Source of the DNA: Syntrophomonadaceae bacterium
GTDB lineage: Bacteria > Bacillota > Syntrophomonadia > Syntrophomonadales > DTU052
Direction: 5' to 3'
Length of the DNA: 64,000 nucleotides
NCBI GenBank assembly: GCA_012728655.1
Contig: JAAYEQ010000025.1
Location: 1 to 64,000, forward strand
Under the pieces are notes generated by a model. The model had not been told where the DNA came from, made no database searches, and saw only the letters and a list, made by a program, of their open reading frames with translations. The position numbers and the translations under genes were made by a program. Below are positions 7,061 through 22,809 of the stretch, piece after piece (within the stretch, counting starts at the first letter, position 1; the number at the start of each line of letters is the position of its first letter).

Positions 7061-7316
7061 ATTGTTACCCCCTTACGTTGTACTTCAGGAACAAAAACCC
7101 GTCCAGATCTCAACATGCAACCACTGCTGCACCTGCTTCCAATGCCTTGTTGAATAATGTTTCCATAATTAACATCCATTTTTTCCAATACCGCAATTTT
7201 CTGCTTCCATTATATACAATAAAACAATTTTTAGGTAACAAAATATACAAAGGTTACCTCCATTATCCGACTGCCCATTACATAAAATCGGTTTCGGTGT
7301 TACAATAGTTGATAGT

Positions 7317-7332
7317 GATACATCTGTGTATC
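7317..7332. promoter_or_regulatory. Palindromic operator upstream of the sigma-54 activator gene
   Basis: GATACA-TCTG-TGTATC; same arms as 5701-5716. Confidence 0.65.
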
Positions 7333-7389
7333 ATAAAGTCTGATGAGCATAAACGCTACCGGTACGGTAACCTGAGGGAGGGCATCCGG

Positions 7390-9552
7390 ATGCAAAAAAC
7401 CTGTGTCATCGAAGACCCCTGGATATCAATAGTCAACGACCTCATACGTGACGGTACTGCGATAATTGTTAAAAGTTCATTAAAAGTGCGGGATTTCATG
7501 CGTCCAAATCCTTGGACGCTCACAGTCAATGATACCCTTCAGGACAGCCTGGATATCATCATTAATCGCAGAATTGACGGCGTTCCCATCCTGGATGATG
7601 AAGGCAACCTGGTGGGACTGGTCACCAAGACCCTGGTCTTGAGAGAACTGTTCAAAGGCCGTCCACTGGACTATCCCGTAAGAAAAATAATGAGAACCAA
7701 TCCGATTGTGACCGGTCCTGACGAGGACGTTTCCACCCTCATTACCGTCAGTGTCGGCAACCTGCCGGTGGTGGACAAGGGCAGAGTGGTGGGCATTGTG
7801 ACCCTGTCCGACACCATTCGTGCTTATTTCAGTTCGGTCCTGAAATTGAGAGAGGAACTCTACACCATAATAGATTCCATGCACAACGGTCTTATCTCCG
7901 TTAATGAAGAAGGCAATATCGTATTATTCAACACTGCCGCCGAAAACCTGTTTCAAATCCCGCGGGAGCAGGCGGTAGGTAAGCCGGTTATGTCGATCGT
8001 TCCTGAAAGCAGGTTGAATGAGGTTCTGATGACCGGAAAAAAGGAATCGGGCAAACTAACTTACAACGGCCGTGTTCTCATCTCCAACCGAACCCCTTTG
8101 ATCTCAAACAATAAGGTCATCGGCGCCGTAGCGGTTATGCAAGATATTTCCGAACTGGAAATGATATCGGAGGAATTGAGTATTACCAAACGGATGAAAG
8201 ATGAATTGGATGCCATTATCGACTCTTCATACGACGGTATATACGTTACCGATGGCGAGGGAAAAACGTTACGGGTCAATGAGGCCTACTCGCGGATTAC
8301 CGGGATACCCAGCGAAAAACTGATCGGCAGAAACATCAGCGACCTGGTAGCGGAAGGGATATTAAGCCAATCAGCCATCATGGAGGTTCTGGAGCGCAAG
8401 GAACGGGTGACCATATCTCAGGAAATGAATAACGGCTCCAGCGTGCTGATTACCGGCAATCCCATCTTTGATGATTCCGGCAACATCGTACGCGTCGTTG
8501 CCAATGCAAGAGATTTCACGGAACTTAATACTCTGCGGATGCAGCTTCAGCAAGCCGAGAACCTTTCGAAGCATTTTCAGGTGGAACTTAACAAGTACAA
8601 ACTCGGTGATGAGTACGTAATCCACAGCCAGAAGATGAAAGATCTGGTAGACCTCAGCATACGCCTGGGACAGGTTGATACCACCGTTCTTATTCAAGGA
8701 GAATCGGGGGTGGGCAAAGAGGTCATCGCCAAAACCATTCACCGTCACAGCCTGCGAAGCGACAAACCCCTGATCAGCATTAACTGTGCCGCCATACCGG
8801 AAAGCCTTTTGGAATCGGAACTGTTCGGTTATGTCCCCGGGGCCTTTACCGGAGCAAAAAAAGACGGCAAAGCAGGCATTTTCGAGATCGCTCATCAGGG
8901 CACCCTGTTTCTTGATGAGATCGGAGACCTGCCCTTCCACCTGCAGAGCAAACTCCTGCGGGTAATCCAGCAGCGGGAAATAACGCGCATCGGAAGCACG
9001 ACCCCGATTAAGATCGATGTCCGTCTGATTGCAGCCACCAACCGCGATTTATGGGAGATGGTTCTGCGCAAAGAGTTCAGACGAGACCTGTTTTACCGGT
9101 TAAACGTAGTCCCCCTTTATGTTCCTCCTCTCCGGGAAAGAAAAGAGGAAATTCCGTTTTTGGCCGCCTTCTACCTGAAGAAGTTCAATGACAAGTACGG
9201 ATTCAACAAGCGGCTGCATGAGAAAGCGGTTAAGGCTCTGATCAACTACGACTGGCCGGGTAACGTGAGAGAACTGGAAAACCTCATAGAGAGGCTGGTG
9301 GTAACCTGCGCCGGTGATGTAATTACCGATGTGGGACTGCCGGTGCCCGATCCCCAGGATCTCATTACCCTAAACCTGGATCCCAGCTCATCCTTAAAAG
9401 ACGCGGTCGAGGAATTGGAGTGCCGTCTGATACAGGAGGCCATAAACCGCTGTGGTTCCACCAGAAAGGCGGCCGCCGAACTGGGAGTCAGTCAGCCGAC
9501 CATTGTCCGCAAGGCTGCCAAATATGGCATAAAGCTGAGAGATGAGAAGTAA
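7390..9552 (+). CDS. Sigma-54-dependent transcriptional activator with CBS pair, PAS, AAA+ and Fis-type HTH
   Basis: GESGVGKE Walker A, GAFTGA loop, CBS-type repeats ([18 protein letters not shown]), C-terminal HTH; ATG 7390 preceded by GAGGGAGGG. Confidence 0.92.
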
Positions 9553-9648: not shown

Positions 9649-10665
9649 TTAGGGTTTAACCATTATCTTTACCGCATCCCCCTTGGGATCATCGAGCCTT
9701 TCAAAGGCCTTTTGCAGATCCTCGAGACCTACAATATCATCGACAAACCTGTCTGTTTTCAGGACTTTACGTGCAATGTAATCGATGGACGTGTCAAACT
9801 CGTCAGGGGAATAGCCGTATGAACCTTTAATCATGATCTCCCGCATGTTTACTCTCATGGTGTAGATGGGAACCAGATCATAGTTCACTCCGACCAAAAC
9901 CACTGTTCCCCCGTAACCGGTCGCTCCGATAGCGGATTGAACCGCCGGAGCCGGTCCCGCACATTCAAAGGTCTTGTCGAACCCGCCATCGGTTCTTGTC
10001 AGGAGCTTCTTCTGGAGTTTGGGATCACCGGCATCGAACACCTCGTCGACATCCCCAAAAGCCAGTGCCTTCTCCCGGCGAACCGGATTAAGCTCCGACA
10101 GCGCTACATAAGCCGCCCCGGAGATTCGGGCCCAGGCCGCACACAACAGTCCGATGATTCCGGCACCTACGACCAGTACCCGGTCCCCCGGTTGTACATT
10201 CCCCAGGTGAACAGCCCGTAAAGCAACTGCCGCCGGTTCCACCATCGCCCCTTCTTCCATGGTCATCCCATCGGGAAGCTTTCGCACCATAAGCGGATTG
10301 GCCAGCATATACTCGGCATAGGCTCCAGGGGTACTAATCCCGGGGGCATCGTCCATGTATTTAACACAAGCAGCATACAGCTGTCGCTTACAGTACTTGC
10401 ATTCCATGCAGGGGTTGACCGGAAGTGCGGTTACCCGGTCGCCCACCTTAAACATATCCTTTGCCGGACCCGGGTCGGCTATGGTTCCGCCAAACTCGTG
10501 CCCCATGATCAGTCCCACCGGGACTCCATTATGCCACATATGGATGTCAGAACCGCAGATACCGGTTCTTTCAACCTTGATTAATAGTTTGGAGTCGGTC
10601 GCCTGCGGCGGTTCAGTTTCGATCAGCTTCAGTTGACATTTACCCTCGATGGCTACAGCCTTCAT
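9649..10665 (-). CDS. Zn-dependent alcohol/polyol dehydrogenase (MDR family)
   Basis: GICGSDIHMWHNG, GHEFGGTI, CMECKYCKRQLYAAC structural Zn site, GAGIIGLL. Confidence 0.9.
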   Translation of the reverse strand: MKAVAIEGKCQLKLIETEPPQATDSKLLIKVERTGICGSDIHMWHNGVPVGLIMGHEFGGTIADPGPAKDMFKVGDRVTALPVNPCMECKYCKRQLYAACVKYMDDAPGISTPGAYAEYMLANPLMVRKLPDGMTMEEGAMVEPAAVALRAVHLGNVQPGDRVLVVGAGIIGLLCAAWARISGAAYVALSELNPVRREKALAFGDVDEVFDAGDPKLQKKLLTRTDGGFDKTFECAGPAPAVQSAIGATGYGGTVVLVGVNYDLVPIYTMRVNMREIMIKGSYGYSPDEFDTSIDYIARKVLKTDRFVDDIVGLEDLQKAFERLDDPKGDAVKIMVKP

Positions 10666-10710
10666 ATGAACAGCCTCCTATCTGCCGGTATTCGATGAGC
10701 AGCTCAGGTA

Positions 10711-11502
10711 CTACGCTATAACGGCGTGCATCCCGCCATCGATGGGTATGGAATGACCGGTAATATGGTCGGAAGCTTTGGAGCAAAGGAAAACTATTGC
10801 TCCCTTCATATCATCCGGACCCCCTACCTTGCGCAGTGGAGTCTTATCATAGAAAACCTGTTCGCCGCCAAGGTTTTCCCAGTGCCGCTCAGTCATATGG
10901 GTTGGGAACGGACCCGGAAGGATAGCATTAACATAGATGTTGTAACGACCCCACTTGACCGCCAGATCCTTGGTCAGGTTTATAACCGCAGCTTTACTGG
11001 CATTGTAAGCAACCGTATCCTGTTCCTCGGGGAAAGTCCCGCCCAAACCGGCTATGGAAGCGATATTGACTATCTTGCCGTAACCGATTTCTTTCATGCT
11101 GCGAGCACACAGCATGCTCAGGTGGAACAATCCAATTACGTTGACCTCAAAAACCCAGCGGAATCTGTCCATGGGGAAGTTCATGGAATCGGCGCCCCAA
11201 GTGACCCCGGCATTGTTAACCAGGATATCCACCTTGCCGAACTCCTTCAAGGTAAGATCTACCAGGTTTTCGATCTCCTCGCCCTTGGATACGTCACAGC
11301 GGGCTGGAATAGCCTTGATACCGTACTTAACCAACTCATTGGCGAGGGCTTCACACCGCTCCACCTTACGGGCGGCAACAACCACATTGGCGCCCGCTTC
11401 GGCTAAGGCGTGACACATCTGATTGCCAAGACCGACAGAGCCGCCGGTAACAATGGCAGTTTTCCCGGACAAATCAAACAATTCCTTCAGGTTCACAAAC
11501 AT
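10711..11502 (-). CDS. Short-chain dehydrogenase/reductase
   Basis: TGGSVGLG, NNAGVTWG, YNASKAA. Confidence 0.9.
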   Translation of the reverse strand: MFVNLKELFDLSGKTAIVTGGSVGLGNQMCHALAEAGANVVVAARKVERCEALANELVKYGIKAIPARCDVSKGEEIENLVDLTLKEFGKVDILVNNAGVTWGADSMNFPMDRFRWVFEVNVIGLFHLSMLCARSMKEIGYGKIVNIASIAGLGGTFPEEQDTVAYNASKAAVINLTKDLAVKWGRYNIYVNAILPGPFPTHMTERHWENLGGEQVFYDKTPLRKVGGPDDMKGAIVFLCSKASDHITGHSIPIDGGMHAVIA

Positions 11503-11867: not shown

Positions 11868-14800
11868 ATGGGTAATGAAAGCTTCAGCAGCTTTGAAAAG
11901 CGCTTCAGCGAGGCCGTCCGTGAGCTAATCTCTCTCCTTGGGGGATTTGCCCACGTTGACACGGTAATCGGTATTCCATTTTACAACGAAAAGGCCACAC
12001 TGCTCGAACTGTTGCAGCTTTTGTCCGGCAACCCGGATAACCTGCCATCCCCCAACACCATGATCGCCTGTATTGGAGACCCGGCCGGCCGCGATATTGC
12101 GGAAGCCATTAAAGGATTAAACCTGCCTATTCCGCATTTTGAATACGTATTGGCGCCGGGGATCAACGGCCGGGGTGCCAGCATAAGAGCCCTGATTGAG
12201 ATCGCCAATTACCTGGAAGCAGATTTGATAGTACTGGCTGCCGACCTCAGGCGGGAACATGGTCGGGGATTTCGCCCGGATTGGGCCAAAAGGTTGGCGC
12301 AGCCTATTCAAAAAGACTATGATCTGGCTCTGGGGTGTTTTCAGCGGCATCATCTGGAGGACCCGGTAGGCAAGTTATTTACCGGACCGCTGCTCGAGGT
12401 GTTTTACGGTTGCCGGGTTACCGATCCCACCAGCGGCATTTACGCGATTAGCCACGACCTCTTGGAAAACTACTGCCAGGATATCAAACTGTGGACCGAA
12501 ATTACCAGAGGCTACGGCATAGACCCCTGGCTCATAACCAGAGCCCTGCGATGGAATAAGGCCGTCTGCGAGGTAAAGCTTGAAAGCAAACTGGCACGGC
12601 CTTCCCCGGAGAAGGTGAATCTTGTTTTCAAGGAAAACGCCTTATCACTTTTTGAGTGCATAACCCGGGACGATAAGTACTGGTCGAACCGTCCTCAAAT
12701 CCTGAAGCATCTGGATGTTTTCGGCCCGCCTTTCGTTTCTGACGTCCCTGTTAATCCGGCTTTTTCGTTCACTGACCTGGTCATGTCCTTCAAAAGCGGC
12801 TGCAATCAATACGGTAACCTGTTGGATTCCCTGCTCCCTACGGACATTGCCGAACACTTGAAAGACGAAGTTCAGTTTTATGCCAGCCGCTTTACCTTTG
12901 GCCCGCATCTGTGGGCGGCCGTGGTCAACAGTTTCCTGCTGGCGTATGCTTTTAAAAAAGAAATTCCGGTCAACGACCTTCTAATCAGCCTGACATCCCT
13001 CTTTAACGGGCGCATTGCCGGTTTTCTGGCCGAAACGACATCAAGCGCGCCCACAGCACCGGACAACCTCCCGTTTGATCAATCCTCTTTACCGTCACCG
13101 GGTGCGGTCGAGGCGGCCAAAGAAACGCAAAGAGAGGCGTTCTTTATGCTGAGCGAGGGGTTGTCCGAGGAGTGGAGGCAGGCTGCCCACGATACCCGGC
13201 CGGTCATTGTTCCGGCGCATTATATGGAATTCATTCCCGGGATTCCCATTGTACTTCCCAAAACCCTGGTCGGTCCAGGCAATGCTGCGATCTCCACCGA
13301 GGAGGTATTTAACCGGCTGCAAAACCGGTATCAAGAACGTTTCAACAAGTTTGTCCATGAAGGATTGAACGTGCCCGTCGATGCGGATTCAAGCGCACTG
13401 GTTGCCGGTGTTGCCGGCTTTATGGCCGACCTGGAACGCGTATTGGAAGAAATGCTCCCCGGTGATCTCTACACCGAAGAAGGGATCGGACAGTTTCTAG
13501 GAGGCATCTTCAGCCTCTTTTCATTCCCCCGGGTGTTCGCGGTCAACAATGATCTCCTGCGGGAGATGCTGCTTAAGTTCCCCCCGTCGAACCTGATCAT
13601 CCCCCGGGGTTATCATGACGTTCAGGAACTGGTTGACAAGATGGACCTGAGAGACGCCGTGAGCCTGGCCAGCCTGGCGGAAAACCAGCTATTCATCGAA
13701 CAGGCCCAGGAGTGGCTTCTCGATAACCTGCGCCCCGAAAACATGGAAGAAGTTGAGCTTAAACCGCTGATCCTGGGCAGTCAGGACATGCACGGCTCGT
13801 ATCAGCTGGTCGCCACCTCCAACTTCAACATACTGGTTGGCAGGATAGCAGCCAGTCCGCTCGGTAAAGGAGTAGGGGGTCAGTATCCCCGGCTCCGTTA
13901 TTGCCTGTCGGTAGTTCGCCAGGCGGCAATCTCTGCCAACTACTCGCGTTTATGGCGGATTTATGCCCGCGAACGCAGGAATCTGGGAGAAAAGATCGGC
14001 AACTCCCTGGTAGGCTGGTACCGGGCTGAGACCTTTGCGGTCAACAATATCATGGAGAATACCAATCACCGACTGCTGGTCGGGTTTTTCGAGGCGCTGA
14101 TCGATAAGTTAAAGGCTTCCGGTCAGGTCTCCGCCGCCAAAACATTGGATCTGATGGTACAATCCTACGGGCTCAGCCAGATCCTCGACGACGGTACCTT
14201 CCTCCCCTGTTCCGCCTGGACCTGGGCCAGCTACAGCTACAAGGGCGGGCAAGGGTTGCCGACGCCTCTGTCCAGCCATGTGGAGGAGAAGTGGTTTAAC
14301 CATGAGTTGCTGGAAGAGATCTTCTCCTCCCTGGGTTACGATACTGCGGTGGTCGATGAACAAGCCATTCAACTGGTGGGCGAAGGTCGTTCCAATGAAG
14401 ATCTCCTGACCGCGGTATTGGGAGCGGAGGCCGAGAATGTGGTTGCAGTATCCCAGGACACCTATCCGTTCCCCCCGGCCAAGAGCCTGGTTCGCTACCC
14501 GGGGAATCCGATATTATCCCCCATCAAGGAGCATTTCTGGGAATCGCGTTATGTTTTGAACGCCGCATCCCTGCGCATTAAGGACCGGGTTTACATTCTT
14601 TACCGAGCGTACGGAGACGACGAAATATCGCGTATAGGTCTGGCGATAACCGACGGTTATCGGGTCCTGGAGCGGCTGCCCTACCCCGTATTCACCCCGC
14701 TGGGTCCCAAGGAGAAAAAGGGGGTCGAAGATCCTCGGGTCGTGGTAATCGACGGTTACATCTATATGATGTACACGGCTTACGATGGGGTTATCGCTCA

Positions 14801-15455
14801 GGTATCAGCCGCCGCCATCTCCCTTGAGGATTTCCTCAACCGCAGGTTCGACCGGTGGGAACGGAAAGGCCTGGCCTTTGAAGACGTATGGGATAAGGAT
14901 GCGATCCTCTTTCCGGAGAAGATCAAGGGACGCTATGTCATATATCATCGAATAGAACCCGGTATCTGGGTGTCATACCTGGATGAACTCAAGTTCCCGG
15001 CGCCCCGGGGAAGACATTCCATTATCATGGGTCCCCGTTCCGGGCGCATGTGGGACTCGGTCAAGATAGGAGCCGGAACCCAGCCCCTGAAAACAGACTT
15101 TGGATGGCTCATGATTTATCACGGCGTGGATAGGGATCGGGTATATCGCTTGGGAGTCATGCTGGTTGACGCTCGTGACCCGGAACGCCTTCTCTACCGT
15201 TCCCCCAATCCCGTGCTCGCGCCCGAAACGGAATGTGAAATCGGCATTCCCGGCCAGGCCTGGGTATGCAACGTAGTCTTCACCTGCGGAGCGGTCCCGG
15301 CTGAAGATAAAGAACGACTATACGAAGATGATGAGCTCCTGGTGTACTACGGAGCCGCCGACTCCCATCTCTGCGTGGCTACCTGCAAGGTGGGGGACCT
15401 GCTCCCCGAAGAAATCAGACGCAAATACCGGGGAGCGGTTTATGAAAGCGAATAA
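11868..15455 (+). CDS. 1195-aa multidomain protein: GT2-like glycosyltransferase N-terminus, unassigned middle, GH130-like phosphorylase C-terminus
   Basis: N-terminus VIGIPFYNEKATL..LIVLAADLR; C-terminus GVEDPRVVVIDGYIYMMYTAYD..WDKDAILFPEKIKGRYVIYHRIEPG..YHGVDRDRVYRLGVMLVDARDP is characteristic of GH130; clear SD AAGGAGG. Confidence 0.85.
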   Translation: MGNESFSSFEKRFSEAVRELISLLGGFAHVDTVIGIPFYNEKATLLELLQLLSGNPDNLPSPNTMIACIGDPAGRDIAEAIKGLNLPIPHFEYVLAPGINGRGASIRALIEIANYLEADLIVLAADLRREHGRGFRPDWAKRLAQPIQKDYDLALGCFQRHHLEDPVGKLFTGPLLEVFYGCRVTDPTSGIYAISHDLLENYCQDIKLWTEITRGYGIDPWLITRALRWNKAVCEVKLESKLARPSPEKVNLVFKENALSLFECITRDDKYWSNRPQILKHLDVFGPPFVSDVPVNPAFSFTDLVMSFKSGCNQYGNLLDSLLPTDIAEHLKDEVQFYASRFTFGPHLWAAVVNSFLLAYAFKKEIPVNDLLISLTSLFNGRIAGFLAETTSSAPTAPDNLPFDQSSLPSPGAVEAAKETQREAFFMLSEGLSEEWRQAAHDTRPVIVPAHYMEFIPGIPIVLPKTLVGPGNAAISTEEVFNRLQNRYQERFNKFVHEGLNVPVDADSSALVAGVAGFMADLERVLEEMLPGDLYTEEGIGQFLGGIFSLFSFPRVFAVNNDLLREMLLKFPPSNLIIPRGYHDVQELVDKMDLRDAVSLASLAENQLFIEQAQEWLLDNLRPENMEEVELKPLILGSQDMHGSYQLVATSNFNILVGRIAASPLGKGVGGQYPRLRYCLSVVRQAAISANYSRLWRIYARERRNLGEKIGNSLVGWYRAETFAVNNIMENTNHRLLVGFFEALIDKLKASGQVSAAKTLDLMVQSYGLSQILDDGTFLPCSAWTWASYSYKGGQGLPTPLSSHVEEKWFNHELLEEIFSSLGYDTAVVDEQAIQLVGEGRSNEDLLTAVLGAEAENVVAVSQDTYPFPPAKSLVRYPGNPILSPIKEHFWESRYVLNAASLRIKDRVYILYRAYGDDEISRIGLAITDGYRVLERLPYPVFTPLGPKEKKGVEDPRVVVIDGYIYMMYTAYDGVIAQVSAAAISLEDFLNRRFDRWERKGLAFEDVWDKDAILFPEKIKGRYVIYHRIEPGIWVSYLDELKFPAPRGRHSIIMGPRSGRMWDSVKIGAGTQPLKTDFGWLMIYHGVDRDRVYRLGVMLVDARDPERLLYRSPNPVLAPETECEIGIPGQAWVCNVVFTCGAVPAEDKERLYEDDELLVYYGAADSHLCVATCKVGDLLPEEIRRKYRGAVYESE

Positions 15456-15465
15456 TAAGGGCAGA

Positions 15466-16461
15466 TTAGGAATGCAGCAATTGCTCGGCCAACAGCATGG
15501 TGACCAAGGCTTCGGCTCCCTGGTTGGGGTTCAATCCGTCGGGGGTTAACCCGTCATGGCAGCCCCCGGTTTCCGAATTGATCAGGGGCAAATCGTGGAT
15601 GTTTTTCCCGAGATACCACTGCCAGATCATCTCCATCATGGTTTGAAAGTCCTTTTGCCCCGTCACCATAAAAGCCTCGCGACAGGCCAGTATCATGGAG
15701 CCGGCTTCCACCGGCTGCTGGTCAAAAAGCGGTATCTTTTTCCCCTTTTCCCACCATCCTCGGTTCCCTACGGGGGCAAAATACCCCTTCGCCAGCAGGC
15801 TGTCTCCCAGAAACAGCAGCGAGTCCCGTGCTGTATCCTGTACTTTCCGGTCAAGCTTGATGCGGCAATAGGAGAAAAGGGCGTGGGGCAGTATGGCATT
15901 GCAGTAAGTCATACGCTCCTCAAACCACCTCCACCCAGGCGAATTATATAATCGGTAGAGGCGGGTCAACTGCTCGACACAGCGCTGGATTATGCCGGAT
16001 ACACGTTGTTCAGCCTCCGGCATTTCACGAGCGAGGACCGTACAACCGATCAAGACGTAAGCATTGCTGCGGGGAAATTCCAGGGCCTCAATAAACGACA
16101 GGGCATCGGTGGCCATTTCCCGGCAGGCTGCCGATACCTCCGGCAAGTCCGAGACCGCACCAAAACAAGAGGCCATAAATGCCCGGCCCTGGCTGTCCTC
16201 CGAATCCAGGTCGGTAACAAATCCCCGGTTAGGAAGCCACCAGTTGCGCCATCCCTCCCCTCGACGCCACGCCTTCCGAAGCGCCTCGCAGTAAAGGTGG
16301 GCATATTCTTCACGCTGAGAGCCCTCCATGTTCAGAGCCACCAGCAAGGCTCGAGCGGTGTCATCAGTCGTACACCCGCTGTTAATGTCGGGTTCGCCGT
16401 GGGGCGCAAACTGGATTATACCGTAGTCACACGTCAGGCGTGCCAGATGACTGTAGTTCAT
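15466..16461 (-). CDS. 331-aa protein, probable alpha/alpha-barrel-like, associated with glycosyltransferase loci; function unknown
   Basis: Start overlaps the GT1 stop by 4 nt; Trp/His-rich motifs (GWRWFEERMTYCNAILPHALF). Confidence 0.8.
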   Translation of the reverse strand: MNYSHLARLTCDYGIIQFAPHGEPDINSGCTTDDTARALLVALNMEGSQREEYAHLYCEALRKAWRRGEGWRNWWLPNRGFVTDLDSEDSQGRAFMASCFGAVSDLPEVSAACREMATDALSFIEALEFPRSNAYVLIGCTVLAREMPEAEQRVSGIIQRCVEQLTRLYRLYNSPGWRWFEERMTYCNAILPHALFSYCRIKLDRKVQDTARDSLLFLGDSLLAKGYFAPVGNRGWWEKGKKIPLFDQQPVEAGSMILACREAFMVTGQKDFQTMMEMIWQWYLGKNIHDLPLINSETGGCHDGLTPDGLNPNQGAEALVTMLLAEQLLHS

Positions 16462-17633
16462 GCTTGTCCCTTTCCTCCCCGAACACGTTTCAGCCCATAA
16501 TGCATTATCGCCTCATTGGCCACCTGGCTATAATAGCCGGCAACACTGTCCCAGGTCAAAGTCTTCCCATACTCCCAGGCTTTCTCTTCCAAAGCGGCCT
16601 GGAGCTTGGGATCCCCCAGTACAGCATCCAGAAGCTCGGCCAGGGCCTCAGGTGATGCATCCCTGGCTACCAAGCCCCTCCCCTGATCGAGAAGCTCGCG
16701 TGCGTGTTCATAAGGGGTGGAGACTGTTGCCCTCCCACAACCAACGGCAAAGGAAAGGGTGCCGGAAACAGCCTGATCAAGGTTGGGATAGGGGCTCAGA
16801 TACACATCGGTCATGTAAAGACAGTCCCCCAGTTCCTCCATATCCAGGAAGCGGTTAATGAACACAACATTCTTTTCCATCCCCAGTTCGGAAACCAGCC
16901 GCGTAACCTCTTCCCGATACCTGTCCCCCTCCTGTTTAAGGAGATTGGGGTGAGTACTGCCCGCAATAATATACACACAGTCAGGATACTTGTCCACCAC
17001 CTGACTAATAGCCCTGATCCCTATTTCCAGGCCCTTCCCGGGCCCGATCAGACCGAAGGTGGTAATTATGCGTCGTCCCTGGTATCCCAACTGCTGCTTT
17101 AAGACCTCCCGGTCTTTGGCTTGAAACTGAGGAACGCCGTGGGGAATAACATGTACTTTCTGGGGCGACAGGTTGTATACCGGTCCCAGCAAGATGTCCC
17201 GGGCCCGTTTGGTCATGCATACCACTGCGGTGGCATAACCGGCCAGTCGATTAAATACTTCCCGACAATGGGCTGATGGTCGAGGAAGTACAGTGTGAGC
17301 AACAAGCAGAATGGGCTTTTGAAGTCGGGCAGCAAAATCGAGGATGTATTCGCCGTCCTCCCCCCCATAGATGCCAAATTCATGCTGAATTATAACTATA
17401 TCGATATCACGCGACTTGTTGATCCAACCGGCACACCCTGTGTAATCGGAACGCCTCTCCTTACTCAACCGGTAGACCACCTCGTAAGGATAAAGGAACT
17501 TGGAGCCGCTGACCGACGCAATATTTACGTCTTCACCCCGGGAACAAAGACTATCCCTCAAATCTTTGGAGAACGTTGCAATCCCGCACTTTTCTGGCAC
17601 ATAGGTACTAACCATCAAGTAGCGATTCATCAT
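16458..17633 (-). CDS. Glycosyltransferase family 1 (GT4-like)
   Basis: QHEFGIYGGEDG, GLIGPGKGLEIGIRA, E-x7-E-like region AVSGTLSFAVGCGRATVSTPYEHARELL. Confidence 0.9.
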   Translation of the reverse strand: MMNRYLMVSTYVPEKCGIATFSKDLRDSLCSRGEDVNIASVSGSKFLYPYEVVYRLSKERRSDYTGCAGWINKSRDIDIVIIQHEFGIYGGEDGEYILDFAARLQKPILLVAHTVLPRPSAHCREVFNRLAGYATAVVCMTKRARDILLGPVYNLSPQKVHVIPHGVPQFQAKDREVLKQQLGYQGRRIITTFGLIGPGKGLEIGIRAISQVVDKYPDCVYIIAGSTHPNLLKQEGDRYREEVTRLVSELGMEKNVVFINRFLDMEELGDCLYMTDVYLSPYPNLDQAVSGTLSFAVGCGRATVSTPYEHARELLDQGRGLVARDASPEALAELLDAVLGDPKLQAALEEKAWEYGKTLTWDSVAGYYSQVANEAIMHYGLKRVRGGKGQA

Positions 17634-17798
17634 TTCACCTCCAAGATTTCAAAATAGCATGTCCCCGATAATGCAATGCAACCCTTTAATTAACCCCAGG
17701 GAATACCGAGTATAACACCTCCTTTTTATTATTTTACAAACAATTATAGGTAATTAGCAAACCGGAAGGGGGGTAATATCCTACTTTTCGGGGCCGGA

Positions 17799-19169
17799 TT
17801 ATACTTTTATCTCAAGACCCAGGCCGTTTAGAAAACTGCACAACTCATCCTCAATTCGTTTCAGCCCTTCTTTGGTCCGGCTTTCATAACGCACGATCAG
17901 TTCCGGGCCGGTGTTGGAAGCCCTAACCAGACCCCATCCATCCGGAAACAGTATGCGGGCGCCATCAACATCGATGACCTCGTATTCTTTCCGAAATCTC
18001 TCCCGTACCTTTTCCACCACCTGGAACTTCTCGGTATCCGAGCTTTTGACCCTGATTTCCGGTGTGGTCCAGTACCGGGGAACATCCGCCAGGAGTTCGC
18101 TCATACTCCGGTCGGTGTTGGAAAGTATGCGCAGCAATCGGGCTGCGGCATATAAGGCATCGTCATAGCCGTAGTATTCGTCGGCAAAGAACATGTGCCC
18201 CGACATCTCCCCGGTAAAAATGGCGCCTATCTCTTTCATTTTCGCTTTGATCAGCGAGTGACCGGTCTTATACAGCAGGGGACGCCCTCCGAGCTTGACG
18301 ATTTCATCAATCAAGGCCTGTGAGCATTTCACCTCGACAATGCAGTCGATGCCGGGATGACGGGGCAGGATTTCCCGCCAGTAGAGGATCATCAGCAGAT
18401 CCCCCCAAATTATGCGGCCATCCTCAGCCACCACTCCCAGACGGTCGCCGTCACCGTCCAGGCCAATGCCCAGATCGGCCCTTTCGCTTTTCACTACCCT
18501 TATCAGGTCCTGGCAGTTCTCCACTTTGACCGGATCGGGATGGTGGTTGGGGAAATCGGGGTCCGATTCACAATACAGTTCAACCACCTCACACCCCAGT
18601 TCTCGAAACAGGCGCGGGGCAAAGAAGGAAGCGGTCCCGTTGCCGCAGTCAACAACGAGTTTTAAACGGCGGGGTCCCAAACTTATTCTCCGTTTAATTT
18701 CGTTGATGTAGTCCTCGGTGATATCCATATCGGTTACCGTGCCTTTGGGCGACCGGGAAATGAACACCCCATCCCGGGCCAGGCGGTATAACCTCTGAAT
18801 ATCGTCGCCGTATATGGTGTTCTCCCCGAGCAGGACCTTGAACCCATTGTACTCCCCGGGATTATGGCTGGCGGTGATCATAAGTCCGGCCGGGATCTCC
18901 AGATGGCGGGCCGCAAAGTAAAACATCGGGCTCACCACCACCCCCAGGTCGATCACCTGACAGCCGGAATCGGTAAGAGCCTCCACCACCACCTCCCGCA
19001 GATGAGGCGATGATTTCCGGTTGTCCCTCCCCAGGACCACCTTGTTCAACCCCTGCTCCCCAGCCATGGTGGCAAATGCCCGCGCAATTCTGCGAACGGT
19101 ATCATCATCCAACTCCTGGGGCACAAGCCCCCGTATATCATACTGCCGGAAGATGTTCCTGCTAATCAT
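17799..19169 (-). CDS. manB: Phosphomannomutase/phosphoglucomutase
   Basis: FRQYDIRG, TASHNPGEYNG phosphoserine loop, GDGDRLG metal site, RASNTGPELIVRYE. Confidence 0.93.
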   Translation of the reverse strand: MISRNIFRQYDIRGLVPQELDDDTVRRIARAFATMAGEQGLNKVVLGRDNRKSSPHLREVVVEALTDSGCQVIDLGVVVSPMFYFAARHLEIPAGLMITASHNPGEYNGFKVLLGENTIYGDDIQRLYRLARDGVFISRSPKGTVTDMDITEDYINEIKRRISLGPRRLKLVVDCGNGTASFFAPRLFRELGCEVVELYCESDPDFPNHHPDPVKVENCQDLIRVVKSERADLGIGLDGDGDRLGVVAEDGRIIWGDLLMILYWREILPRHPGIDCIVEVKCSQALIDEIVKLGGRPLLYKTGHSLIKAKMKEIGAIFTGEMSGHMFFADEYYGYDDALYAAARLLRILSNTDRSMSELLADVPRYWTTPEIRVKSSDTEKFQVVEKVRERFRKEYEVIDVDGARILFPDGWGLVRASNTGPELIVRYESRTKEGLKRIEDELCSFLNGLGLEIKV

Positions 19170-19217
19170 GGGCCTTCCTCCCTTAATCCACTTGGACTGC
19201 ATTCACAACTTTCTCTG

Positions 19218-20258
19218 TTAGCCGTCTTGCAATCGTTTCTTTAGTGCTTCGATCAGGTTGACCGGAACCGGATCGACGCCATAAATGGCAGCCAGGTACG
19301 TACTTACAAAATCCCCGGTATAAATCAGGCTGAACAGTTGAGCCATCCTGGACCTGCCCCGGGCTTTAACCGTTAAAAACTTCGTGATTCTATCGTTCAG
19401 GATTTCACGGGTTATATCCATCCGGCGGCCGATCCGCGGGTGCTCGTTCCCTCCGCGCAGGATAATCACCGCGATTCTTTTGGTCAGCATTTCCGGACCT
19501 TCCAGGCCGGTAAACTCATTGTGATTCAACTCGGGAAAACAGTTGTAATAAGCCGGGGCCTTGGCATTCTCGTTGATCTGGCCCTTCCAGCGCATGGCCG
19601 CCACCTCCAAATCAGATCCGGCGGCCCAGATCACCGGGATGCAATCCTTTAGCTCCAATGCCAGTTCAAAAGCAGAATTTGATCCATCGGGATCATCCGC
19701 ACAGAGCTCCTCCCTTATTTCCTTCAATACGGCTGCCGTCTCCCGGATCTCATCCCTGATGCCGTCCGCCAGCCCGGCCATTTCCGCCATCAGGGCCAGG
19801 GGCGTAAAAAGATACCCCAGGGCGGCTCGGGGCGGCAGCCCCGCCGGAATAGTAATGAGAGGAATCCCGGCCTTTTCAGCCAGGGAACCCAAATGGCCTC
19901 CGGTGGTAACGGCTATTATCCGAGCACCTTTCGCTCTCGCATCCTCGAACGCGCTGATGGTCTCTTCAGTGTTGCCGGAATAGCTTACCGCCAGTACCAA
20001 TGAATCTCGGCCTACAAATCCCGGCAGGCGGTAATCGCGGCTGACTAATACCGGAACCGACTTCCGGGTGCTGAGACAGCACCGGAGCACGTCCCCTCCG
20101 ATGGCCGATCCTCCCATACCGGCAACCACCACGTTGGATATACCACCGGCTATAGTAATTCGGTATTCCTGCTGCAGACAGTATTCCAGTTGGTCAGGCA
20201 GACCATGGATATATTCAAGCATCTGTTTGACACCTTTAGCATGAACTCCGCTTATCAC
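19218..20258 (-). CDS. Bifunctional phosphoglucose/phosphomannose isomerase
   Basis: SIS-domain motif GGSAIGGDVLR, SYSGNTEETISAF, ELNHNEFTG. Confidence 0.92.
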   Translation of the reverse strand: MISGVHAKGVKQMLEYIHGLPDQLEYCLQQEYRITIAGGISNVVVAGMGGSAIGGDVLRCCLSTRKSVPVLVSRDYRLPGFVGRDSLVLAVSYSGNTEETISAFEDARAKGARIIAVTTGGHLGSLAEKAGIPLITIPAGLPPRAALGYLFTPLALMAEMAGLADGIRDEIRETAAVLKEIREELCADDPDGSNSAFELALELKDCIPVIWAAGSDLEVAAMRWKGQINENAKAPAYYNCFPELNHNEFTGLEGPEMLTKRIAVIILRGGNEHPRIGRRMDITREILNDRITKFLTVKARGRSRMAQLFSLIYTGDFVSTYLAAIYGVDPVPVNLIEALKKRLQDG

Positions 20259-20285
20259 TGGGTATCATCCCTTTCACTTTGTGAA

Positions 20286-21362
20286 TTATATGAAAGCATG
20301 GTAGCCGGTCCGTTTCAGCTCCTCCACCACTTTTTTAATATCCTGGGCCCGGTCCCGGTGACACACCAGAAGGCAGTCATCGGTGTTCACAACTATCAGG
20401 TCCTCAACTCCCAGGGCGGCCACCACTTGCTCAGGCGAGTAAATCAAGCTGTTGCGGGTGTCGAGGAATACACCTCCTCGGCTTTGATGCACATTGCCGT
20501 TCTCATCCGCCGCCTGGTAATGTTGCCAGGAGGTCCAGGACCCCACATCATCCCAGTCGAATCGCGCCGGTATCACCAGCACCTGGCTGCATTTCTCCAA
20601 AATGCCGTAATCTACAGATATTCGGGGAAATCTCTGGTATTCCCTCATCAATACCTCCGATTGCTCCGGAGTCCCCAGGCTGTTCCCTATGGCCTCCAAA
20701 CCCCGGGCAACGTTCGGCAGAAATCGGAGAAAAAGACTCCGGATAAGATCCACCCTCCAGATAAACATACCGCTGTTCCAAAGATAGTTGCCTTCCTCAA
20801 TATATTTCTTCGCACGCTCAATATCGGGCTTCTCTTTGAATTCCAGAACGCTGTGGACCGGTATGCCTGCATATTCTCCCCTGACCTCGCCCATACGAAT
20901 GTACCCATAACCGGTAGCCGGTTCCGATGGCCGGATCCCTATGGTGACCAGCCAATCCCCGCCGGCAGCCGCATCAAAGGCGGCGGCCAGGCACTCATGG
21001 AATCCCCGGACATTGGTTATGTAATGGTCGGCCGGGAGGATCAGCATCGTTCCTCCGGGGTCCCGGCGATAAATGTACTCGGCCGCTAGGCCGACAGCCG
21101 GGGCGGTATCCCGACCAAAGGGTTCACAGATGATATTCGAAAGTGGAAGTTGTGTAAGCTGAGACACAACCTGCTGATGATACTGCTCTCCAGTCACCAC
21201 ATAGATATGATCCGGTTCTATCAGCCCTGCGACTCGTGACACCGTCTGCTGCAGCATGGTCTGCTCTCCGAAGAGACGCAAAAACTGCTTGGGGTTGTCC
21301 TGCCGAGACAAAGGCCAAAACCGTTCACCGGTGCCGCCGGCCAGAATCACAGCATAAACCAC
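20286..21362 (-). CDS. manC: Mannose-1-phosphate guanylyltransferase
   Basis: AVILAGGTGERFWPLSRQDNPKQFL, FKEKPDIERAKKYI; GTG start after GAGGTG. Confidence 0.92.
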   Translation of the reverse strand: MVYAVILAGGTGERFWPLSRQDNPKQFLRLFGEQTMLQQTVSRVAGLIEPDHIYVVTGEQYHQQVVSQLTQLPLSNIICEPFGRDTAPAVGLAAEYIYRRDPGGTMLILPADHYITNVRGFHECLAAAFDAAAGGDWLVTIGIRPSEPATGYGYIRMGEVRGEYAGIPVHSVLEFKEKPDIERAKKYIEEGNYLWNSGMFIWRVDLIRSLFLRFLPNVARGLEAIGNSLGTPEQSEVLMREYQRFPRISVDYGILEKCSQVLVIPARFDWDDVGSWTSWQHYQAADENGNVHQSRGGVFLDTRNSLIYSPEQVVAALGVEDLIVVNTDDCLLVCHRDRAQDIKKVVEELKRTGYHAFI

Positions 21363-21659
21363 GAATATCACCTCTCTTCTGTTGTGCACTTTGCTGGGGC
21401 CAATCAGGTATTATGCAGGGGTGCTAATAAGAATTATAAACACCCAAGTTATAACAGGCAAACCAGCGGTACCAACCTGGACGTTGAACGGCGAACCATC
21501 GAGGTCTAGAATCTGCAGCCCACAGGCGAAAGGAGTCGCTACCGGCCTCAAGATACTTTAAGCATTGCCTCGTCTTATTATTCCTGGCAATTCCCAATAT
21601 CATGCGCTTATCTGATTGCCGGTACATCCACGCTTGAACTTAAGAAAGTAGGCTCCAAA

Positions 21660-22236: not shown

Positions 22237-22325
22237 TGGTGCCCGGGGCCGGACTCGAACCGGCACGGCCGTCACCGGCCGACGGATTTTAAGTCCGTTG
22301 CGTCTGCCTGTTCCGCCACCCGGGC
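22237..22325 (-). tRNA. tRNA-Leu (TAA)
   Basis: Long variable arm, anticodon loop CTTAAAA, GGTTCGAGTCC, encoded CCA. Confidence 0.95.
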
Positions 22326-22349
22326 ATGTTTTATTTGTGAATATAAAAA

Positions 22350-22424
22350 TGGAGGGCGGAACCGGATTCGAACCGGTGAATGGCGGTTTTGCAGACCGCA
22401 GCGTTTCCACTTCGCCATCCGCCC
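22350..22424 (-). tRNA. tRNA-Cys (GCA)
   Basis: Anticodon loop CTGCAAA, GGTTCGAATCC, encoded CCA, U discriminator. Confidence 0.95.
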
Positions 22425-22558
22425 TCATTTCAGCAAACTTAATTATATCCCAGGCATCGCGGCGAGTCAAGGACTGCGCCCTGGCGTTCCTTAGCTGCAG
22501 GTTGAGCAGCCTGATGTGCAAAAAAAGCCGTTCATTGTGAACGGCCTTAAGTCTTAAC

Positions 22559-22633
22559 TGGAGCGGAAGACGAGATTCGAACTCGCGGCCCTCGCCTTGG
22601 CAAGGCGATGCTCTACCACTGAGCTACTTCCGC
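22559..22633 (-). tRNA. tRNA-Gly (GCC)
   Basis: Anticodon loop TTGCCAA, AGTTCGAATCT, encoded CCA. Confidence 0.95.
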
Positions 22634-22641
22634 ATCCTATA

Positions 22642-22717
<76 letters not shown>

Positions 22718-22733
22718 CTGTTAATCAAAAATA

Positions 22734-22809
22734 TGGCGGAGCCGACGGGACTTGAACCCGCGATCTTCGGCTTGACAGGCCGACATGTTAACCTCTACAC
22801 TACGGCTCC
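22734..22809 (-). tRNA. tRNA-Asp (GTC)
   Basis: Anticodon loop CTGTCAA, GGTTCAAGTCC, encoded CCA. Confidence 0.95.

Follow-up and report, generated by a model that had tools for sequence, protein, structure and literature searches.

A conserved glycosyltransferase-like/GH130 fusion and its partner genes in syntrophic Clostridia suggest a cytoplasmic mannoside cycle

We analysed a stretch of 64,000 nucleotides (positions 1 to 64,000 of contig JAAYEQ010000025.1, assembly GCA_012728655.1; hereafter the window) from a Syntrophomonadaceae bacterium whose 2.3 Mb genome lies near Syntrophothermus sp. DTU052. A first-pass annotation, made from the letters of the window, had described six genes side by side as a possible closed cycle of mannoside synthesis and phosphorolysis. 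The open reading frame coordinates together with the Pfam and NCBIfam matches bear out this gene arrangement: six intact reading frames lie within 11868-21389, at the positions given for them before (Table 1). The genes for mannose-1-phosphate guanylyltransferase (ManC), a bifunctional phosphoglucose/phosphomannose isomerase (PGI/PMI), a phosphomannomutase (PMM), a glycosyltransferase (GT) of family GT4 and a 331-residue protein that we call P331 follow one another on the minus strand at short intervals, except that those for GT4 and P331 overlap by 4 bp. A plus-strand gene for a 1195-residue fusion protein (parts at 11868-15422) converges on this run. The GT4 gene had been labelled GT1, a mislabelling since Pfam Glycos_transf_1 corresponds to CAZy family GT4. 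The fusion had been described as GT2-like/GH130-like; the GH130 assignment stands whereas the simple two-part GT2 architecture does not, as the protein has three parts and its N-terminus adopts a GT78-like fold. The PMM carries PGM/PMM domains I-IV and reaches 493 bits against NCBIfam PgmG, for which the cut-off is 600. A simple hydropathy scan showed no evident transmembrane segment in any of the six module proteins.

Table 1. Features of the mannoside module, in window coordinates.
Feature	Coordinates	Strand	Basis
Fusion, N-terminal part (residues 1-445): GT-A domain and helical tail	11868..13202	+	AlphaFold2 (AF2), Foldseek, weak PF00535, motif counts
Fusion, orphan all-helical middle domain (residues 446-868)	13203..14471	+	no Pfam family or PDB sequence relative
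Fusion, GH130 domain (residues 872-1185), beta-1,2-mannoside phosphorylase-like	14481..15422	+	PF04041, NCBIfam, PDB 7fip/9fj8, residues
P331, 331 aa, (alpha/alpha)6 barrel	15466..16461	-	AF2, Foldseek, invariant residues, fusions to GT4
GT4-family glycosyltransferase, 391 aa	16458..17633	-	PF00534, PF13692, motif survey
Phosphomannomutase/phosphoglucomutase, PgmG-like	17799..19202	-	PF02878-PF02880, PF00408, NCBIfam PgmG
Bifunctional phosphoglucose/phosphomannose isomerase (PGI/PMI)	19218..20258	-	PF10432; NCBIfam above cut-off
Mannose-1-phosphate guanylyltransferase (ManC)	20286..21389	-	PF00483, PF22640

The GH130 part of the fusion matches PF04041 at residues 891-1178 (E 4e-46, 157.7 bits against a cut-off of 26) and is closest to the beta-1,2-mannobiose and 1,2-beta-oligomannan phosphorylases of Thermoanaerobacter (PDB 7fip, 9fj8). 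Its score of 240 bits against the NCBIfam model for beta-1,2-mannobiose phosphorylase is under the cut-off of 450, indicating an enzyme of the same kind and a different equivalog. In Teth514_1789 the mannose-subsite and catalytic residues are N28, E97, D98 and D287 (PMC4264767), and their counterparts here are N898, E954, D955 and D1165. Across 76 full-length fusion homologues the first three are kept in all and D1165 in 75, the remaining sequence having a gap. The catalytic aspartate, whose absence the first-pass annotation had named as a sign against its proposal, is therefore present (D955) throughout. R913, K1010, H1027 and R1028 are likewise invariant (76/76), and the candidate phosphate-binding residues among them, R913, K1010 and R1028, have identical counterparts in the alignment with 7fip and 9fj8. 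The conserved subsite and catalytic positions support a residue set of the beta-1,2-mannoside phosphorylase type in the GH130 part.

The N-terminus of the same protein gives only a sub-threshold match to GT2 (PF00535, E 0.08). Structure prediction and fold searching were carried out on both the 1195- and the 331-residue proteins, as the first-pass annotation had suggested. For residues 1-872 of the fusion we obtained an AF2 model with a mean predicted local distance difference test score (pLDDT) of 84 and a predicted template modelling score (pTM) of 0.61, in which the N-terminal part has a GT78-like fold: the best eight Foldseek matches are all Rhodothermus marinus mannosylglycerate synthase (MGS, GT78), at E 2e-11 to 2e-10 and template modelling (TM) scores of 0.68-0.73 by target length, followed by the ArnC, GpgS and DPMS families at E ~1e-6. 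A profile search of the N-terminal sequence against the PDB found general GT-A enzymes (GtrB, ArnC, DPMS) and no MGS up to E 10, so that the link to MGS is one of fold. For the middle domain of ~420 residues we found neither a Pfam family nor a PDB sequence relative, and its Foldseek matches were inseparable from those of the GT part among the best 50. It occurs in 40 of a sample of 300 Bacillota genomes, always inside the fusion. Many Syntrophomonas genomes (e.g. G006, G013, G019 and G035 of our set) hold two fusion copies from two clades, with and without the second Asp of the DxD-like motif discussed below, and three genes match only the GT78-like part (G238:C238:903-2048, G220:C65:33436-34602 and G243:C16:535-1701).

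A conserved-neighbourhood search, also suggested in the first pass, was carried out on 80 named loci that contain the fusion, many of them on short contigs. The set recurs: GT4 is found at 56 loci, a separate P331 at 47 (with 11 more fused to GT4), ManC at 44 and PMM at 43, and PGI/PMI at only 4. The ManC-PMM-GT4-P331-fusion neighbourhood is found in syntrophic and thermophilic Clostridia, with carriers in Syntrophomonas, Syntrophothermus, Pelotomaculum, Syntrophaceticus, Thermacetogenium, Tepidanaerobacter, Thermosediminibacter and Fervidicola, and because it recurs in so many genera the arrangement is far beyond chance. In Pelotomaculum-type loci the genes immediately upstream of the fusion encode a stand-alone GH130 and a GT4-P331 fusion protein. 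Among the 300 sampled genomes GH130 is present in 71 of the 72 with a clear P331 and in 42 of the 228 others; the Fisher p of 1e-37 for this co-occurrence is an overstatement as related genomes are not independent, and counted by genus P331 is present in 57/211 and GH130 in 77/211. The observations support the fusion, P331, GT4, PMM and ManC as a conserved functional set. In a Bacillota locus of another lineage (L144:7892-12802) the GT4/P331 pair adjoins a GH94 phosphorylase instead of GH130, together with a nucleotidyltransferase; this may possibly be a glucose-based version of the cycle proposed below.

P331 matches nothing in Pfam or NCBIfam. Its AF2 model (pLDDT 91.7) is an (alpha/alpha)6 barrel, nearest by Foldseek to YPO2471 and AGE-type sugar epimerases and then to GH9 and GH76 glycosidases. 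In 33 P331 sequences no His is invariant or nearly so, and the invariant residues include D33, D34, D89, D247, D303, E181 and E317. An ordinary AGE epimerase was thus rejected, its conserved catalytic His being absent, and P331 may instead have a glycosidase-like or glycan-binding role. P331 is an obligate partner of GT4: the two are adjacent or fused in 20/20 distant Bacillota loci sampled, and fused both in Pelotomaculum-type loci and on plasmids. Gene fusions tie further parts of the module together. One P331 (L082:12204-13631) bears a C-terminal cupin resembling a mannose-6-phosphate isomerase domain, and a MannoseP_isomer domain is joined to a second GT4 whose own E-x7-E is intact (L074:12797-14155 and 19 other loci); this GT4 belongs to a neighbour family that 20 of the 80 fusion loci contain.

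The core of the module extends beyond Bacillota. A tblastn search of plasmids returned 28 records with a P331 domain, and GT4-P331 adjoins GH130 in 11 of the 12 records examined. On Sphingobium yanoikuyae pSES220 groES-groEL, ManC, PMI, GT4-P331, GH130 and PMM stand in a row; Sphingomonas koreensis has ManC, GT4-P331 and GH130 near Hsp20 and DnaK/GrpE genes, Devosia and Sinorhizobium plasmids have PMI, GT4-P331 and GH130, and an Ilyobacter (Fusobacteriota) plasmid has GT4, two GH130 and GT4-P331. The plasmids with the core thus belong to Alphaproteobacteria, Fusobacteriota and Deinococcota (including Deinococcus), several carrying ManC, PMI or PMM; the core itself consists of GT4-P331 and a stand-alone GH130 without the N-terminus of the fusion. 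The compact plasmid operons that we examined hold neither an importer nor an exporter, which we regard as the strongest evidence for a self-contained cycle. A neighbourhood that is a mere by-product of GDP-mannose supply was rejected as the sole cause, since plasmids carry GT4-P331 together with GH130 whether or not ManC is present.

Some of these plasmid operons (L184, L177, L180) have groESL, Hsp20/dnaK/grpE or a cold-shock gene as neighbours, hinting at a role in stress. The module could accordingly make a small mannoside akin to mannosylglycerate that protects against stress, a compatible solute tuned or recycled by GH130. The likeness of the fusion's N-terminus to MGS above all other folds is in keeping with such a solute, as is the thermophily of several carrier genera (Thermosediminibacter, Fervidicola and Thermacetogenium). 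Yet the chaperone neighbours are drawn from few records, the fold likeness has no GT78 counterpart by sequence up to E 10, and the product of MGS is an alpha-mannoside whereas GH130 substrates are beta-mannosides. We consider a compatible-solute module unlikely.

The first-pass annotation had noted no exporter, flippase or ligase nearby. As regards exporters and flippases this extends to the 80 loci, where none is recurrent. We collected 374 non-core neighbours within 6 kb and scanned the 44 polytopic ones, which are assorted transporters (YitT, P-type ATPases, DctM, symporters, two BacA and one MatE, the last two kinds at single loci); among the 25 neighbour families listed there was no recurrent flippase (Wzx), Wzy or polysaccharide ABC exporter. 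This bears on the idea that the glycosyltransferases build an exported surface polysaccharide or glycoprotein glycan which GH130 merely trims or recycles. GT4 and ManC are indeed common in clusters of that kind and the ManC here is the only one in its genome, but the lack of recurrent export genes among these neighbours, the soluble appearance of all module proteins and the compact plasmid operons without an exporter led us to reject an export cluster and make a surface-glycan role highly improbable.

No recurrent sugar importer was found near the module in the 80 loci either. A salvage role was proposed for the Thermoanaerobacter sp. X-514 enzymes (PMC4264767), and by analogy imported beta-mannosides would be phosphorolysed here to feed GDP-mannose synthesis. 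It is to exactly these enzymes, which there accompany ManC and GT4, that our GH130 domain is closest, and a TIM-barrel glycosidase-like gene with a GH42 match recurs in 9 related loci. Salvage is nevertheless improbable in our judgement given the missing importer, the almost constant presence of a dedicated GT4-P331 pair and the plasmid operons that combine PMI, PMM or ManC with no importer. The carriers moreover are mostly syntrophic oxidisers of fatty acids or acetate, which are not known for sugar uptake.

The locus combines genes for the supply of GDP-mannose with those for a transferase and a phosphorylase, has no export genes among them, and so shows the gene content of a mannogen-like system. 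We propose a soluble cytoplasmic cycle in which a mannoside is built from GDP-mannose and then broken down with inorganic phosphate. By their established family activities PGI/PMI and PMM would convert fructose-6-phosphate to mannose-1-phosphate and ManC would form GDP-mannose from it. The GT4-P331 pair, the GT78-like part of the fusion or both would then transfer mannose to an acceptor. To judge from its nearest characterised relatives the GH130 domain would phosphorolyse beta-mannosyl linkages, most likely beta-1,2, releasing alpha-mannose-1-phosphate, or alternatively might extend chains by working in reverse. The recovered mannose-1-phosphate could return to ManC or enter glycolysis via PMM and PMI. 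The likeliest product would be an intracellular beta-manno-oligosaccharide or a mannan on a primer, with a small mannoside solute as the main alternative.

Several observations weigh against this cycle. The DxD-like motif of the GT78-like part is degenerate ("AAD"), the first Asp being absent in 76/76 homologues and the second kept in 48/76; the 28 losses are concentrated in the Syntrophomonas clade, where they affect most members, and amount to 3 changes on the tree. The N-terminal domain may thus fall outside the classical metal-dependent transferases. The GT4 protein lacks the second Glu of E-x7-E, the motif being replaced by [DE]QxxSGTx[AST] in 48/56 sequences, the others being variants or unread. 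ManC is the sole copy in the genome (a single match) and hence also serves every other GDP-mannose need, and a GT5 glycogen synthase-like gene is present in the genome (contig C16:8938-9639) and strong in ~10 relatives. Lastly, because MGS makes an alpha-mannoside and GH130 acts on beta-mannosides the two halves of the fusion may handle different bonds; a plausible division of labour would have one half make a primer and the other handle the chain.

The motif counts could also mean that the GT78-like part acts as a regulator which binds glycans or nucleotides without catalysis, synthesis being left to GT4-P331 or to reverse phosphorolysis by GH130. That the first Asp is missing throughout, that GH130 is the most conserved part of the fusion and that the plasmid modules do without its N-terminus would all fit a regulator. 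Against it, the clade of the window keeps the second Asp, and even in the Syntrophomonas clade conservation is alike in the GT part and the middle domain (61.9% vs 61.5%), arguing that the former is not decaying. We regard a purely regulatory N-terminus as somewhat unlikely. Taken together our results favour the soluble cytoplasmic mannoside cycle with a probability of roughly 55%, and it is better supported than the import/salvage or surface-glycan readings. The closed cycle of the first-pass annotation is partly supported, by a conserved gene set, the GH130 residues, the compact plasmid operons and the lack of a recurrent exporter, while its mannan-reserve or solute product and the use of GDP-mannose by both glycosyltransferases remain proposals.

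Glycogen metabolism provides a further context. Glycogen phosphorylase (PF00343, GT35) was not found in the genome itself and was strong in only 3/61 relatives, whereas 12/14 control genomes have it. Of the 61 relatives 56 contain the fusion, whole or in part (a few matches being GH130 only or fragments). This distribution fits a mannoside that would replace glycogen turnover. A more speculative reading, offered tentatively and at less than even odds, is that a single polypeptide, the fusion, serves as both synthase and phosphorylase of a bacterial mannogen: syntrophic and thermophilic Clostridia that mostly lack glycogen phosphorylase would store carbon in an intracellular beta-mannan made by the GT78-like/GT4-P331 machinery and recover it as mannose-1-phosphate, and a minimal version would travel on plasmids among Alphaproteobacteria, Fusobacteriota and Deinococcota.

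Should the cycle exist, it would give bacteria a mannose-based equivalent of glycogen or else a mannoside solute that a phosphorylase can recycle. It would rely on a three-part enzyme of a kind not described before and on an uncharacterised family, P331, which almost always accompanies GH130. As phosphorolysis keeps the sugar phosphorylated it would save ATP in syntrophs and other cells living close to the thermodynamic limit. Some GH130 enzymes that have been read as scavengers of foreign mannan would then act on the cell's own product. With cultured carriers (Syntrophomonas, Thermosediminibacter, Fervidicola, Syntrophaceticus and Sphingobium) the question is directly testable.

Outside the module, five tRNA genes (Leu, Cys, Gly, Phe and Asp) lie directly upstream of ManC on the minus strand (window 22237-22809). 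A CBS-PAS-sigma54 activator at window 7309-9552 adjoins dehydrogenase genes at 9649-11502.

The module is real and probably unreported: in the open-access literature, which leaves most subscription journals outside, we found no report of a GT-GH130 fusion, of bacterial mannogen or of mannan storage in Syntrophomonas. Its parts can be compared with several known systems. P331 has the fold of AGE-type epimerases and isomerases and of (alpha/alpha)6 glycosidases (mannose isomerase, cellobiose 2-epimerase, GH76) but has invariant acids in place of an invariant His. The ~445 N-terminal residues of the fusion resemble R. marinus MGS (GT78; PDB 2bo4, 2y4m) including its helical tail, with TM scores up to 0.73; they differ in being only 12-14% identical, with a degenerate DxD, no sequence-level match and a fused GH130. 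Uhgb_MS (GH130; PDB 9eqq-9erh) is a GH130 relative named mannoside synthase in the PDB and is, unlike ours, a stand-alone gut enzyme. Teth514_1788/1789 of Thermoanaerobacter sp. X-514 (PMC4264767; PDB 9fj8, 7fip) share the GH130 type, the subsite residues and the ManC and GT4 neighbours; these enzymes are stand-alone and cluster with an ABC transporter and a GH5, which their authors read as import and salvage, whereas here GH130 is fused and no importer accompanies it. In Leishmania mannogen is the work of GT108 dual glycosyltransferase-phosphorylases (PMC8950772). Both cycles would share the concept of a beta-1,2-mannan inside the cell, with GDP-mannose as its precursor and GH130-like propellers as its phosphorylases, but in Leishmania one GH130-like fold does both jobs whereas the bacterial module has separate transferase-like and GH130 parts together with GT4 and P331.

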